Shown here piece after piece: positions 1 through 4,290 of a stretch of 64,000 nucleotides of DNA. The position numbers and the translations under genes are program-made. The stretch comes from Lysobacter arenosi (lineage in GTDB: Bacteria; Pseudomonadota; Gammaproteobacteria; Xanthomonadales; Xanthomonadaceae). Numbering within the stretch: position 1 is the stretch's first letter; every line of letters begins with the position of its first letter. Under the pieces are notes generated by a model. That model worked only from the letters and a program-made list of their open reading frames with translations. It searched no databases and had not been told where the DNA came from. The stretch lies in assembly GCF_016613475.2 (NCBI RefSeq), contig NZ_CP071517.1:2666001-2730000 (forward strand), read 5' to 3'.

Positions 1-225
1 GTAGGAGCCGTTCTTCTGCAACACCGCTGGCGCGAAAAGCACATCGAGATCGGCGTTGTAGTCGACCACCACGGAATGCGGCCCGGTCGGTCCGGTGCCC
101 GGCGTCGGGCAATCGATGTCGATCTGGATTGGCCACAAGCTATCGCGACGCGCCACGAGAGGATCTTTGGGTAGGATCTTGACTCGAACCTTGCCGGGGC
201 TGGGTTCACGCTTCGTGCTGGCCAT
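1..225 (-). CDS. Partial unknown protein, last visible gene of the caspase-MBL operon
   Basis: The first 75 codons of a minus-strand gene that runs off the left edge; the start is an ATG at 225. The N-terminus is basic and proline-rich, then alternates hydrophobic and polar residues (KVRVKILPKD, QIDIDCPTPG, VVVDYNADLDVLF), which suggests beta structure. I do not recognise the family. It begins 61 bases after the stop of the MBL-fold gene in the same direction, so it is probably the next gene of the same transcript. No signal peptide is visible. Its identity depends on sequence outside the window. Confidence 0.6.
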   Translation of the reverse strand, partial: MASTKREPSPGKVRVKILPKDPLVARRDSLWPIQIDIDCPTPGTGPTGPHSVVVDYNADLDVLFAPAVLQKNGSY

Positions 226-286
226 ATCGTGCACCGCACCTGGGATGAATGATTGCCGCGACGGGTGTATTCGGCACGACGGCGCG

Positions 287-1363
287 CTAACCGATCAGAT
301 GGAGTTCCATCGGTCCGCTGCCGTCTCCGTACTCGACTTCGTAGTCGTGGTCGGTCATGAGTCCGTAGTCGTCCCACATTTCGTTGTACGGTGTCCGATA
401 GTTGAAGTAGAGGGATTTGTGACCCGGGCTGCCATGCAACACACGAGCGATGCACTCGAGGTTCGGATGCTTGGTCTGCGCCCCGTTCGAGCTGACGATC
501 CACTTGCCTGACCTGAGATACCCGACCAATTCCATACTGGTGTTACGCCGGCTGCCGTGATGCGACAGCTTCACGCAGTCCACTTGCATCGGCCCGGCCG
601 GCGAGAGCTGCTTGAGACTGCTCAAGACCAGGCTCGGATGCGCGTCGCCAAGCATCAGCGCCCGCTTGCCCTGAAACTCCAGCAGCAGGGCAATACTGGA
701 TCCGTTGGGGGCTGCGTCGTCTTCGTCGAAGTGCTGTTCGGCGAGCGCGGTGACATCGAGCGGCCCCATGGGCTCCAGCCCTCGAAAGGCCGCGTCCTCT
801 ACCTCCCTCGCGGCCTCCACTTCGACGTCGCTCGCCCCCATTTCCTCCAGGGTCTCCTGCCAATGCAACGCCAGCTCTTTCAGCTTGGCCGCATCCGGCG
901 ACAGCACGGTCACCGACATACCGCCCGGAAGTTCGATCGACCTGGGTTCACCACATGCACCTACACATATCGCCTGGTCGCCGGTGCCGACTGCCCATGC
1001 CTGCGCATGCTGTCCCTCCAGCAGCGCGGTCAGTTCGACGGCGTCGGCGATGCCCTGCGGCTGCAAAGGCAGGTGCTTCTTCCCGTTGAACCAGACGCTG
1101 CCGATGGTAACGTTGGCCGGCAGCTCTTTTAGCAGCGTCACCGCACCCTGGATGTGGTCCTGGTCCAGATGCGTTACCACCAGGACATCGATGCGTGTCC
1201 CGGCGCCCATCGAGCCGAAATGCGATAGCAGGTAATCACGGGCAGTTCGCGTAATCCCGCCATCGATCAGGATCCGCTGCGGCGCCGCGGCATCTGCATA
1301 CTCGACCAGGATCGCGTCGCCTCGCTGTGCGGGGAATACCTTGATGTCAAAGATCTCAGGCAT
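287..1363 (-). CDS. ComEC-like metallo-beta-lactamase-fold hydrolase
   Basis: A 358-residue soluble protein with the MBL fold of the ComEC/Rec2 type. The metal motif THLDQDH lies at residues 64-70 (H65, D67, D69, H70). A later conserved Asp sits in MLGDAH (about residue 240) and a SHHGS motif at 267-271, as in ComEC-like hydrolases. There are no membrane segments, so this is not the ComEC DNA channel. Relatives hydrolyse nucleic-acid or nucleotide phosphodiesters, but the substrate here is unknown. The ATG overlaps the end of the upstream gene by 8 bases (ATGCCTGA), implying translational coupling with the caspase-containing operon. Confidence 0.85.
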   Translation of the reverse strand: MPEIFDIKVFPAQRGDAILVEYADAAAPQRILIDGGITRTARDYLLSHFGSMGAGTRIDVLVVTHLDQDHIQGAVTLLKELPANVTIGSVWFNGKKHLPLQPQGIADAVELTALLEGQHAQAWAVGTGDQAICVGACGEPRSIELPGGMSVTVLSPDAAKLKELALHWQETLEEMGASDVEVEAAREVEDAAFRGLEPMGPLDVTALAEQHFDEDDAAPNGSSIALLLEFQGKRALMLGDAHPSLVLSSLKQLSPAGPMQVDCVKLSHHGSRRNTSMELVGYLRSGKWIVSSNGAQTKHPNLECIARVLHGSPGHKSLYFNYRTPYNEMWDDYGLMTDHDYEVEYGDGSGPMELHLIG

Positions 1364-2903
1364 CGGACTTCGCCTCGAAGCGCAGGACAGTGAAGAACTC
1401 GCCCGGCACGACCAGGCGATTGATCTTGCGGACCCGCTCGTAGGCCTGGGTCGTCGCGTCCACCCGGTCTCCCAAACGCTGGCTGTCGATGTCGTCCCGG
1501 TTTAGAACCAGCAGGATGTCGCTCAGCAAGGTGATACCGATCGAGAGATAGGGCAGCCCTCGCTTGACCGCTTCGAGTGCGTAATCGCGCAGCAGCTCCA
1601 CATCGACTTCATCGTCGCCGCTGGGATCGTGCGATCCGTACCGCCAGTACATCTGTGCCATTGCGATCGCGCCATCAGGAAGCCGGGGCGCTATCTGGTA
1701 AAGGTTCTCAATCCATTGCCGCCAGTCCGGGCGCTCCCGCTCGTTGTCCTCTCGCGCGTATGTCAGCAATCCGAACGCGCCCGCAGCGGCGGCGATCGGG
1801 TTTTGCTTTTTCTCGAAGAGGTAATATTCAGCCTGGCGCAGCAACATGTCGGCGACCTGGGCTTGGCCGTTGTAGAGGAACCCGAGATAGGTACTGGCCT
1901 CCAGGTCATCCACGACCGGCGAGCATCGCCAGCGGGCGCGCTCGGAAGCGGCCGATTCCGAGCGCATGACGGTATCGAAGGACACCGTCATGAGAATCGA
2001 GGCATCGGCCATGGATCCGATGGCGTCGGCGGATGCGCATCTCCAACCTTGCGGCAGCACGGCGACGTGCGCTGTTCCTGTCGGATCCACGACTGAGGCA
2101 TAGCAACGGCGCTCACCTGTGATGAATCCGGGGGCGCACAACTGGTCCGAGGTGACCAGGCGCGCGCAACGCTCGTCGATGGCGACCATATCGAGGTCGG
2201 TGGCTTCGGGATCGCTTGAGCCGATCCAATTCATCGCCAAGTCGAACTCCCGGGGCTGGTACCTGTCCGTTCCCCCCGGCAGATGCAGCGGCGGACCGCC
2301 AGGCGCAGGGGTGCCGCCCGTGGTCCAGCGCCGGCCGGCCAGCCGCGACAGCGCATGCTGGCTACTGATGCGATCGATGGAACTGGCCGTAGCGCGTACG
2401 TCCATGGCCGCCTGGCGCAGGCGCACGACTTCGGACTCCAGCTTCGCATCGGACAGTGGAGGCGCGGCGTCGTCCGGGCCTGGCGACCTCCGCTCGCTTA
2501 TGGTCTTCTCAATCTGTTCGCTGAAGCTGGACAAGGCTTCAGCGCGTTCCATGGTTGGGAGGCGCTGCGCGACACCGAACAGCGTATCGGCCGCGTGCTG
2601 CGCACTGCGCGCCACAGGCAACTGGAAATCCACCTCAGTCTGTCCGCTTGCGCCGCTCACCGACACCGACTCGGCCAGGATGTCGCCGTTGGGAAGGAAC
2701 AAGCGCACGGTGTATTCACCGGGGTCTACCGTCAGGTTCTGCGGCTCGTTGACTCCGAGCGAAAAACGCAGGGTCTGGCTGTTGGCACTGGCGTCGCCCT
2801 GCGGCACGATCTCGGCAACTGCGCCGCCCTTCCTGGGCTTTTCCCAAAAGCTCGAACCCAGCAGGATCTTCAGGTTGTGCACGGCGTCTTCAGGAACGTT
2901 CAC
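1356..2903 (-). CDS. Unknown beta-sandwich/helical-repeat protein between caspase and MBL genes
   Basis: A 515-residue protein of no family I recognise. I start it at the GTG at 2903, which overlaps the caspase stop as GTGA; an in-frame start at 3020 would lie deep inside the caspase gene. Visible parts are a beta-rich module at about 28-97 containing VDPGEYTVRLFLPNG, a charged low-complexity linker at about 130-215 (ERRSPGPDDAAPPLSD and a Gly/Pro run), a cysteine-containing middle (C246, C256, C267, C289, C327), and an alpha-helical region at about 335-500 that looks TPR-like. No signal peptide or transmembrane helix is seen. Position suggests an adaptor, sensor or protease substrate, which is inference only. 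Confidence 0.8.
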   Translation of the reverse strand: MNVPEDAVHNLKILLGSSFWEKPRKGGAVAEIVPQGDASANSQTLRFSLGVNEPQNLTVDPGEYTVRLFLPNGDILAESVSVSGASGQTEVDFQLPVARSAQHAADTLFGVAQRLPTMERAEALSSFSEQIEKTISERRSPGPDDAAPPLSDAKLESEVVRLRQAAMDVRATASSIDRISSQHALSRLAGRRWTTGGTPAPGGPPLHLPGGTDRYQPREFDLAMNWIGSSDPEATDLDMVAIDERCARLVTSDQLCAPGFITGERRCYASVVDPTGTAHVAVLPQGWRCASADAIGSMADASILMTVSFDTVMRSESAASERARWRCSPVVDDLEASTYLGFLYNGQAQVADMLLRQAEYYLFEKKQNPIAAAAGAFGLLTYAREDNERERPDWRQWIENLYQIAPRLPDGAIAMAQMYWRYGSHDPSGDDEVDVELLRDYALEAVKRGLPYLSIGITLLSDILLVLNRDDIDSQRLGDRVDATTQAYERVRKINRLVVPGEFFTVLRFEAKSDA

Positions 2904-4072
2904 AGCGTGACCTCCGAGGCCGGCGGTGCGACGTGCTTTTCGCAGCTGCCGATGAGGAGGCTGCTTCTGTGCGAGACCGCGGTAAAGGTGTACTGCCCTG
3001 CCGGCAGGTGGATCCACCATGGGGCTTTGCCCGGTGGGATGCGCTTGTCGGTGAACAGCGGCGGCGGCGGCTTGGATTCACAGGAGAACAGCGTATCGTT
3101 GAGTTGCTCCTCGCTCGTGGTGACCTTGACCACGACTTCAGGCTTGCCGCGCAGGCGATGCAGTAACAGCGGACGGTTGGCGTCCTTGGAATCGCAGTAC
3201 TGCGGGATCTTCTGGAAGGCCAGACTCTCCACGCATTTGTTGACGCCTTCGGTAATCGCGGTGGCGACCACTTCCCAACCGTTGTTGCTCGCCTCGCGGC
3301 TGGCACTGCCGCGAAACGCACGCAGCAGGCCCTGCGTGAAGATGGTCGGTTCACCAGGCTGGCCGTAGGCCAGCGAACCCAGGCCTGTCGCGAAGAACAC
3401 CGGGACCGCCTTGTTCCGAATGGCCGAAAGCCCGCCACCGCCAGTGACGATTGGGATGCCCTTGTTGGCATCGCCGAACTGTCTTTCGAACGCGGTGGCC
3501 ATCTCGGTCCGGCAGGCATCGAGGAAAAAGACCTGGTTCTCGGCGGCGCAACGCCGAATGAGTCCGAACCTGAAAGTGTCGAAGTCGATGGCGTGCGCCA
3601 TCGGCATGAGCGGATTGCTGCCGAAATCGTCCAGCAACAGGCTCGATTCGCCGAGGCTGTAGGAAATACCATGGCCGCAGAAGAAGAACAGGAGCGTGTT
3701 GCCTGTATTGCGGCCGGCGCGTTCCATCCACGTGGCAACGGCTTCCTCGACGTTGACCATCGAGGCCCGTTGTAGCGGCGTATCCGGCCTGCCCGGCAGC
3801 ACCAGCATTTGCGGCGTCGTCGAACTGGAGCCGAGCACTTCCAGCGAGCGCAGTGGGCGTGCCGTATTGAGCATTCCGGACACGGGATCGCTCAACCATG
3901 ATGCCATTTCCTGAACCGAAATGGGCGGCGACGAAAGCTGCCCCATTTCCATGTGATGCACGAACAATTGCGCAGGTGCGGAGCCACCCTTGAGATAGGG
4001 GTAGTCGCCCACGCCGATGAGCAACGCATGGGTGCCGAGGTCCGTTGATTGATCATCAAAGATCAGGGTCAT
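2900..4072 (-). CDS. Caspase-like (peptidase C14/metacaspase) protein with C-terminal beta module
   Basis: A 390-residue protein. The N-terminal ~260 residues carry the C14 fold: HALLIGVGDYPYL at 15-27, the catalytic His in FFCGHGIS (H134), and the catalytic Cys in FFLDACRTE (C187), each after a hydrophobic strand. Residues 312-390 form a separate beta-rich module with LPAGQYTFTAVSH, resembling the N-terminal module of the next gene's product. No signal peptide is seen, so it is probably cytoplasmic. The ATG follows a good ribosome site (AGGAAG, 6 bases). Bacterial C14 proteases usually act as regulated proteases in signalling or conflict systems. Its partners here are the overlapping downstream gene and the MBL-fold gene. 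Confidence 0.9.
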   Translation of the reverse strand: MTLIFDDQSTDLGTHALLIGVGDYPYLKGGSAPAQLFVHHMEMGQLSSPPISVQEMASWLSDPVSGMLNTARPLRSLEVLGSSSTTPQMLVLPGRPDTPLQRASMVNVEEAVATWMERAGRNTGNTLLFFFCGHGISYSLGESSLLLDDFGSNPLMPMAHAIDFDTFRFGLIRRCAAENQVFFLDACRTEMATAFERQFGDANKGIPIVTGGGGLSAIRNKAVPVFFATGLGSLAYGQPGEPTIFTQGLLRAFRGSASREASNNGWEVVATAITEGVNKCVESLAFQKIPQYCDSKDANRPLLLHRLRGKPEVVVKVTTSEEQLNDTLFSCESKPPPPLFTDKRIPPGKAPWWIHLPAGQYTFTAVSHRSSLLIGSCEKHVAPPASEVTL

Positions 4073-4098
4073 TACGGCTTCCTGGGAATGAATGACGA

Positions 4099-4290
4099 CT
4101 AGTCAACCTTCGGTGCTCCCTCGACGGCTTGCCGGCGTTGCTGCAGGAGCGACTTCGCCGACTCTCCATTCGCATGAAAGGCTGCTGACTGGAGGCGCGC
4201 AGGGGGATTGATCGACCACTCGTGCTGGCCGCCCTGTAGTGTCAAAGCGAGATTGGTGCTACCGCGATCGAGCAGGAGCCAGGTAGCCAT
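4099..4290 (-). CDS. Possible small first gene of the caspase operon
   Basis: An open frame of 63 codons from an ATG at 4290 (72 codons if a GTG at 4317 is used), ending 26 bases before the caspase gene. The product MATWLLLDRGSTNLALTL... alternates hydrophobic and polar residues and ends in a charged tail. No convincing ribosome site precedes either start and I know no relative, so it may simply be a chance frame. It is listed because position and direction would make it the first gene of the operon. Confidence 0.3.
   Translation of the reverse strand: MATWLLLDRGSTNLALTLQGGQHEWSINPPARLQSAAFHANGESAKSLLQQRRQAVEGAPKVD

Follow-up and report, generated by a model that had tools for sequence, protein, structure and literature searches.

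A probable Canu-type caspase-nuclease trio in Lysobacter arenosi and an adjoining metallopeptidase-MBL gene pair

At the left end of the 64,000-nucleotide stretch of Lysobacter arenosi DNA that we analysed (the window) lie three minus-strand genes encoding a C14 caspase, a 515-aa protein and an MBL-fold hydrolase of 358 aa (Table 1). As the initial annotation of this DNA had noted, they overlap, the caspase and 515-aa genes by 4 bases and the 515-aa and MBL genes by 8. The trio belongs to a one-strand run of 12 genes, or 13 if a 63-aa frame just upstream of the caspase gene is counted, in which intergenic gaps are at most 52 bases. The GC3 of that frame, a possible leader gene, is 0.688, the second lowest in the run, and phmmer found no relative of it in the genome and plasmid loci searched. 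The locus had been described as the edge of an island, which fits its right-hand border because the GC content of the run (62.9%) is lower than that of the flanks (66.8% and 68.4%). On the left, the co-directional run continues for ~20 kb beyond the window. Leftward of the trio come genes for an M4-like (gluzincin) metallopeptidase, a second MBL hydrolase, a DUF2235 hydrolase, a third MBL-like protein, two giant proteins, a DUF3238 protein and a SLATT protein; the first of these, previously listed as unknown, was recognised by its HExxH motif. All 13 proteins of the run were scanned with Pfam, which matched no ATPase among them; the PADLOC and NCBIfam scans covered 10 of the 13, with the two giants and the 63-aa frame in the Pfam scan only. 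In tblastn searches of plasmids, a 270-aa protein of the run had no match and the third MBL-like protein matched two records. Five loci holding relatives of the giant proteins (L023-L027) were searched with phmmer and the middle-gene profile; none had a caspase, middle-gene or MBL1 relative, and the giant proteins were therefore rejected as conserved partners of the trio.

Table 1. Features of the caspase-MBL locus, in window coordinates.
Feature	Positions	Strand	Basis or remark
M4-like metallopeptidase gene (575 aa), 5' part	1..234	-	HExxH; continues off the window to genome C1:2664507
CanC-like MBL-fold pro-nuclease, 358 aa, LmuA/Avs1a/ComEC type (candidate)	287..1363	-	PADLOC, NCBIfam, fold match
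Candidate gate 2, low-confidence segment, residues 176-196, containing Gly195, near Gly200	776..838	-	pLDDT <50
Candidate gate 1, low-confidence segment, residues 100-103, adjoining Gly104	1055..1066	-	pLDDT <50
Metal motif H65-x-D67-x-D69-H70	1154..1171	-	Invariant in MBL alignments
CanB-like adaptor, 515 aa, PF27295 family (candidate)	1356..2903	-	GTG start; middle gene of caspase-MBL loci; candidate CanB by position and layout
C-terminal TPR-like superhelix, residues 334-497	1413..1904	-	
N-terminal beta sandwich, residues 9-94, transthyretin/Ig-like	2622..2879	-	AF2 model, mean pLDDT 84
CanA-like caspase (C14), 390 aa	2900..4072	-	PF00656, PADLOC, NF047832, invariant H134/C187
Caspase C-terminal region, residues 296-390, candidate Ig/transthyretin-like domain	2903..3187	-	hhalign, sequence profile only
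Catalytic Cys187 codon	3512..3514	-	Invariant, caspase alignment
Catalytic His134 codon	3671..3673	-	Invariant, caspase alignment
Possible leader gene, 63 aa	4099..4290	-	ATG open frame, 26 bases upstream of caspase

The caspase was matched by Pfam PF00656 (2.6e-9), by the PADLOC caspase model (1.5e-13) and by the NCBIfam model NF047832 (1.6e-11), in the last case with 44 bits where the cut-off is 140. Its His134 and Cys187, reported as intact from the outset, are invariant across an alignment of 21 rows. A search of solved structures with the caspase profile returned a single chain, that of caspase-7 (E 0.0072), and the same search with the single sequence returned none. The C-terminal region of the caspase was aligned by hhalign with the N-terminal sandwich of the 515-aa family at a probability of 76%, over 22 columns only, the three control pairings giving 0.1-0.7%.

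The middle protein had been assigned to no recognised family. Our local Pfam scan likewise gave nothing above cut-off, but a precomputed Pfam label, PF27295, exists for it. A search with the single sequence gave 36 rows, among them the L. arenosi protein itself, and a profile search gave 150; PF27295 was borne by every match listed (120 of the 150 profile matches), so that membership of a common metabolic family was rejected. The AF2 model bears out the beta module and TPR-like end noted earlier. Where a "disordered linker" had been supposed between them, the model instead places a helical hairpin and then a second beta domain, the helical blocks having pLDDT values of 83-94 except for residues 141-150 at 60. 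Foldseek matched the sandwich to the transthyretin-like domain 5aq0 with a probability of 1.00 but an E-value of 0.034. The full model had no Foldseek match below E 0.001, and a search of solved structures with the family profile had none up to E 0.1. On position and layout, we propose that this beta-sandwich and TPR-like family, PF27295, is the CanB-like middle component, a part of such systems that has been little described.

The MBL hydrolase was matched by the PADLOC models LmuA (3.6e-73) and Avs1a (1.7e-52) and, below cut-off, by the NCBIfam Avs1a model NF041809 (7.8e-69). Its designation as a ComEC-like enzyme with an intact metal motif was upheld, the closest solved fold to its model being the ComEC domain 9ic4, although a search of solved structures with the single sequence found no match. 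Relative to ComEC, ~70 extra residues sit between two conserved blocks of the protein, which are separated by 132 positions in the family profile versus 62 in 9ic4. With low pLDDT taken as a stand-in for disorder, this insertion contains the only two segments of at least three residues with pLDDT below 50 in the model, which we regard as candidate gates. In two MBL alignments, glycine occupies the Gly104 column in 10 of 11 and 17 of 20 rows and the Gly200 column in 11/11 and 16/20 rows, while the Gly195 column has glycine in 10 of 11 rows but in fewer than 15 of 20 in the wider alignment. Where the family has its second gate-1 glycine, the L. arenosi protein has Ala108.

The initial annotation had proposed a survey of co-occurrence, and the trio recurs far above chance. 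All three genes were found in identical order and strand in 13 of the 17 genome loci identified through the 515-aa protein, and these 13 span several phyla and include one Asgard-archaeal MAG. Of the remaining four, two are truncated at the end of a contig and two are short of one gene within the sequence covered. Among the eight plasmid loci fetched by caspase similarity, a middle-gene relative lies directly downstream in all eight and an MBL gene is also present in five. In Bosea, fetched by MBL similarity, the caspase and middle protein are fused into one. The other three plasmid loci (L028, L034 and L036) and one genome locus (L007, whose contig ends 2.65 kb further on) carry the caspase and middle genes and no MBL gene; therefore, the caspase-middle pair may work with other effectors. 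Conversely, MBL1-type nucleases stand without a caspase in three of four plasmid loci fetched by MBL similarity. The middle gene occurs in two of 369 genomes of the same class, L. arenosi and one other, both with the full trio. Among 394 genomes of one order, a search for the caspase found nine matches; six, in wider stretches (two on contigs of just 3.2 and 9.2 kb), had no middle or MBL relative, the other three were covered in loci of 2.1-3.4 kb, and none was a Canu locus within the sequence covered. Klebsiella was not named among the 120 of 150 profile matches listed, the majority being without an organism name, and no close E. coli relative seems to be present in the genome sample, since the best identity in an rpoB search for enterobacteria was 76%. 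Many relatives are on plasmids and several are in Streptomyces; further ones come from chromosomal contigs and from MAGs of archaea and bacteria.

The initial annotation could not name a system, but the trio matches Canu (CanABC), a recently described caspase-nuclease anti-phage system. There the gated MBL enzyme CanC becomes a potent nuclease through the action of a complex of the caspase CanA with CanB (Tuck et al., Science 2025, PMC12799240). As described there, the KaeCanABC system of K. aerogenes has its caspase gene upstream of the nuclease gene, its nuclease carries dual disordered insertions with conserved glycines, and the system needs both active sites as well as the two cut sites predicted in the nuclease; Canu is also reported to protect E. 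coli from T4. The L. arenosi locus shares the order of caspase gene first and MBL nuclease gene last with one gene between, a caspase-family protease with intact His/Cys, and a nuclease with two low-pLDDT, glycine-bearing insertions relative to ComEC, albeit with Gly195 weakly conserved in the wider alignment and Ala108 replacing one glycine. TPR and Ig-like parts have also been described for Canu loci (PMC12799240). Canu caspases have a C-terminal Ig-like fold, and the observation on this point in L. arenosi is the 22-column profile match of the caspase C-terminal region to the sandwich of the middle protein. The L. arenosi locus differs in having further same-strand genes directly after the trio, and the terms "lipase", "metalloprotease", "metallopeptidase" and "subtilisin" are absent from the main text of PMC12799240, the only paper recognised as describing the trio among those listed by searches of open-licence PMC text.

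We consider it highly likely that the trio is a Canu-type anti-phage system, and its function would then largely have been described already (PMC12799240). Gene content, order and overlaps, catalytic residues, the wide recurrence of the trio and the ComEC-like fold with its ~70-residue insertion, including the two low-confidence segments and the conserved glycines in or next to them, are direct results of our analyses; for complex formation, gate cleavage, DNase activity and phage defence we infer from the K. aerogenes system. As CanA, the caspase would likely form a sensing complex with the 515-aa protein as CanB, upon infection the caspase would cut the two disordered insertions covering the MBL active site, and the cut CanC-type pro-nuclease would degrade DNA, stopping the infection or the cell. 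Activation of a caspase that then switches on the MBL hydrolase had been anticipated by the initial annotation and agrees with the published mechanism. The likely target of the caspase is the nuclease insertions rather than the middle-protein linker, because insertions with low-confidence, glycine-flanked segments match the published requirement for cut sites in the nuclease.

Other systems are less close. The nuclease family is common to Lamassu, AVAST and DRT systems. The gated nucleases of AVAST type 1 (Avs1a) and Lamassu (LmuA) belong to it by PADLOC and NCBIfam models, but the L. arenosi enzyme falls below the NCBIfam Avs1a cut-off. The STAND NTPase with fused trypsin-like protease of AVAST type 1 had no match in the run (Pfam for all 13 proteins, PADLOC and NCBIfam for 10), and no LmuB-type SMC ATPase of Lamassu was matched by Pfam in the 13 proteins. 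EACC1-caspase consists of two genes (Kaur et al. 2020, PMC7159879). The L. arenosi caspase weakly matches its caspase domain model, NF047832, but that score is far short of the cut-off, and the EACC1 membrane gene had no match in the 10 proteins scanned with NCBIfam.

The loci without an MBL gene lend themselves to a broader interpretation, unlikely in our judgement, in which the caspase and middle protein form a general sensor-protease core, the MBL enzyme is one of several targets, and the following genes (metallopeptidase-MBL, DUF2235, SLATT) are also under caspase control in a multi-effector programme. A patatin gene lies 3 bases from the core in L058 and a DUF2235 gene 8 bases from it in L029, an alpha/beta hydrolase gene is beside it in L034 and L036, a PLD domain is fused to the middle-gene relative in L028, and a convergent patatin gene is downstream in L011, all of which would fit such a programme, as would the tight spacing of the 12-13 genes in L. 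arenosi. Among 199 Streptomyces genomes, which are not independent, DUF2235 was found in 5 of 8 with the middle gene versus 17 of 191 without, all five genes being divergent neighbours of the caspase. However, in a DUF2235 tree the L. arenosi protein groups with unlinked Streptomyces copies (100/99; long branches), apart from the group holding the linked ones, which itself includes three unlinked copies. Despite caspase linkage in Streptomyces and Bradyrhizobium, the tree weakens the case for DUF2235 as a conserved part of the L. arenosi Canu system. Further counter-evidence is that the giant-protein relatives occur apart from the trio genes (5/5 loci) and the metallopeptidase-MBL pair without a caspase or middle gene (7/7 loci), and that 13 of 27 core loci have no hydrolase gene nearby, as judged by eye, motif and Pfam on chosen neighbours.

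Very unlikely is a non-immune role exercised by the same chemistry, such as developmental cell death or the upkeep of plasmids or mobile elements, to which the many plasmid-borne relatives and those in Streptomyces, a genus with programmed cell death, would be suited. The relatives in chromosomal contigs and MAGs speak against it, as do the nuclease family, being that of Lamassu, AVAST and DRT systems, and the protection of E. coli from T4 by Canu (PMC12799240). Least probable of all is that the caspase cleaves the middle protein, as the initial annotation had supposed for its linker, and that the resulting fragment acts on the MBL enzyme. The Bosea fusion does suggest close contact of caspase and middle protein, but the supposed linker is predicted helical, and the required cut sites of the published system lie in the nuclease (PMC12799240), where the L. 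arenosi enzyme has matching insertions.

Beside the Canu-type trio, the metallopeptidase gene overlaps the second MBL gene by 53 bases, and a peptidase gene is directly upstream of the second-type MBL in all 33 plasmid records carrying that MBL. The second MBL is LmuA/Avs1a-related, its two metal motifs being 249 residues apart versus 203 in the Canu-type enzyme, and in seven of seven loci elsewhere the pair has no caspase or middle gene. Possibly, though doubtfully, the pair represents a second, independent class of protease-gated nuclease, in which case tandem DNase fuses, each with its own protease, would share one immune operon with lipid- and membrane-attack genes (DUF2235, SLATT). Against this, the second-metal-motif pattern was found in only one of seven other peptidase-linked MBL proteins checked.

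The L. arenosi trio is very probably a member of Canu, a system already described, and the adjoining metallopeptidase-MBL pair is the newest lead. As such, the trio would add a further lineage to those with a DNase pathway activated by a caspase, which calls to mind caspase signalling in animals; its conservation spans several phyla of bacteria and extends to a MAG of the Asgard archaea. Our results also point to two possible extensions of this pathway: lipid hydrolases, which recur next to the caspase core, and a metallopeptidase-MBL pair resembling a further protease-gated nuclease.

The three genes at the left end of the window, which encode a caspase, a 515-residue middle protein and an MBL-fold hydrolase, most likely represent a member of the Canu (CanABC) caspase-nuclease anti-phage system, since they resemble Canu in the order of the genes, the type of protease, the family of the nuclease and the gates (two low-confidence, glycine-bearing segments within the MBL nuclease insertion). 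Tuck et al. (PMC12799240) describe Canu loci with a gated nuclease gene downstream of the caspase gene, together with TPR and Ig-like parts and genes of unknown function. They also report that CanA and CanB co-purify, that CanAB turns CanC into a nuclease, and that defence by the K. aerogenes member KaeCanABC against T4 requires both active sites and both predicted nuclease cut sites. By analogy with KaeCanABC, the caspase would activate the MBL nuclease.

The initial annotation was sound in its observations. The 4- and 8-base overlaps between the trio genes on the minus strand were borne out by the gene coordinates, and the catalytic residues it listed were invariant, H134 and C187 of the caspase in a 21-row alignment and H65, D67, D69 and H70 of the MBL protein in three alignments. 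Its mechanistic guess, that the caspase triggers the MBL hydrolase, was a good one as the activation step agrees with KaeCanABC, but the cleavage it tentatively placed in the linker of the middle protein would lie instead in the nuclease, based on the published KaeCanABC work. Its statement that this was not a system it could name is superseded, as Canu, described in the same source, fits the trio (PMC12799240). The trio very probably belongs to an already described system, and what is new is the member and its setting.

Genes of the trio and of the co-directional run to its left in Lysobacter arenosi
Gene or product	Position	Strand	Remarks
Caspase	window 2900-4072	minus	left end of window
515-aa middle protein	window 1356-2903	minus	left end of window
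MBL-fold hydrolase	window 287-1363	minus	left end of window
HExxH metallopeptidase, 575 aa	window 1-234 and genome C1:2664507-2666234	minus	crosses window edge; Peptidase_M4 E 0.012, below cut-off
Second MBL protein, 403 aa	genome C1:2663348-2664559	minus	LmuA/Avs1a-related
DUF2235/Tle1-like hydrolase	left of window	minus	Pfam 1e-76
270-aa protein	left of window	minus	
296-aa protein	left of window	minus	MBL-like by metal motif only; no match in protein-family model scans
Two giant proteins, 2446 and 2069 aa	genome C1:2647052-2660606	minus	
DUF3238 protein	left of window	minus	
SLATT_4 membrane protein	genome C1:2645778-2646359	minus	end of run; NCBIfam 7.1e-32

Leftward extension along the single 3.95 Mb contig, of which the window covers bases 2666001-2730000, as the initial annotation had proposed, revealed that the minus-strand run continues with intergenic gaps of at most 52 bases and that the gene at the window edge encodes an HExxH metallopeptidase. 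The GC content of the run (62.9%) is below that of both flanks (66.8% and 68.4%), which suggests an acquired island of ~25 kb whose first 4.3 kb lie inside the window. The SLATT_4 gene adjoins a possible XRE-type regulator on the opposite strand, recognised by eye (about 2130-2490 of locus L003). The larger giant protein had a weak coiled-coil-type Pfam match and the 2069-residue one had no Pfam match; seven other proteins were among the matches listed for the latter in a search of 5.8 billion proteins. Both giant genes are also adjacent in Sinorhizobium sojae (L023, 19377-32949), near TniA/TniB/TniQ-like genes recognised by eye. Relatives of the larger giant occurred at three other rhizobial loci, two of which carry, after this relative, another giant gene without detectable similarity, and the trio was absent from all five giant-gene loci fetched.

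A co-occurrence survey, also proposed by the initial annotation, used the middle-protein family for a pattern-based search of about 85,000 species genomes, and the resulting 17 loci were queried by phmmer with 13 proteins. The caspase was present in 15 loci, the MBL in 15 and all three genes in 13; in every complete trio the caspase gene comes first, the middle gene second and the MBL last, all on the same strand. Locus L006 starts at a contig edge, L019 stops 0.3 kb past the middle gene, the stretch of L007 from the middle gene to the contig end contains a protein kinase gene but no MBL, and phmmer detected no caspase relative in the stretch of L021 examined; the sequence of L015 contains masked stretches. 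Hosts include Azospirillum, Sinorhizobium, Comamonas, Mycobacterium, Altererythrobacter and Streptomyces, and, among metagenome-assembled genomes, Anaerolineales, Coatesbacteria, Thermoanaerobaculales and Lokiarchaeota. Twelve plasmid loci were selected out of 25 caspase and 66 MBL plasmid records. In all eight chosen by caspase similarity a profile search identified a middle-gene relative next to the caspase (mainly its C-terminal part in L033, L034 and L036), with the MBL also present in five. Among those chosen by MBL similarity, Bosea vestrisii (L031, 9482-11998) has an 838-residue caspase-middle fusion followed by the MBL, and no caspase relative adjoins the MBL in L037, L038 and L039, the last retaining a 142-residue fragment of the middle gene. 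A second caspase gene follows the MBL in L031, and TIR genes lie upstream. The trio is rare, being found at the order level in L. arenosi alone of 151 genomes (single-sequence search), at the class level in two of 369 (middle-gene profile; the second genome has the full trio), and in eight of 199 Streptomyces genomes by profile, one match being weak.

Genes of lipid-hydrolase type recur beside the core of caspase and middle gene. Patatin genes were identified 3 bases from the core (L058, 3704-4966) and convergent with it (L011, 11964-13073), DUF2235 genes beside it in L029 (10886-11932) and in six of the eight Streptomyces loci of the 17-locus set, and alpha/beta hydrolase genes with weak Pfam scores in L034 (10805-11992) and L036 (10860-12164). 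Less convincing hydrolase genes lie near the core in L015 and L035, and none of this type was seen in 13 of 27 core loci when these were checked by eye, by motif and by Pfam on selected neighbours. A 1788-residue protein in L028 (13282-18648) combines a middle-protein relative with trypsin-like and PLD domains, possibly an effector swap; no MBL1 relative was found in the stretch examined. Among 199 Streptomyces genomes, DUF2235 was present in 5/8 with the middle gene versus 17/191 without it (Fisher p 0.0005, or 0.008 without three genomes already known, the genomes not being independent), and all five genes adjoin the caspase. Nine of 18 middle-gene genomes have DUF2235, each in single copy and seven near the trio. 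The L. arenosi DUF2235 groups on long branches with unlinked Streptomyces copies, whereas the other tree group comprises every linked copy, also from Bradyrhizobium, plus three that are unlinked; the link of the L. arenosi gene to the trio is therefore weak.

The metallopeptidase and second MBL genes of L. arenosi overlap by 53 bases, and in seven of seven fetched pair loci the two genes overlap or are at most 12 bases apart. On plasmids, 33/33 second-MBL records had a co-directional peptidase match immediately upstream, no more than about 1 kb away, a count read off two match lists in which some records are near-identical. All 33 are among the best 40 of 67 peptidase records, and the 34 peptidase records outside these 33 had no match to the second MBL at E 1e-5. 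An HExxH and a downstream HExxxD motif are kept in all eight aligned peptidases; PADLOC had no match for the seven peptidases scanned and NCBIfam no model for four, and the five MBL partners scanned match LmuA-type PADLOC models. As the second metal motif pattern (HHG) was found in the L. arenosi MBL and only one of seven other partners, the other six may differ at this site. In the Rhizobium etli locus L095 (5901-14031) the peptidase of the pair is a fusion of an M4-like part with an S8 protease, and the gene of its MBL comes next. An MBL1-type gene lies 1.8 kb from this pair on the opposite strand, with a hypothetical gene and a gene for a MoxR ATPase ahead of it. Since the seven pair loci yielded no relative of the caspase or the middle gene and the pairing held in all 33 plasmid records, the peptidase and MBL constitute a separate, recurrent pair, here directly behind the trio. 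The points of real interest are this pair and the lipid-hydrolase genes that recur beside the caspase core.
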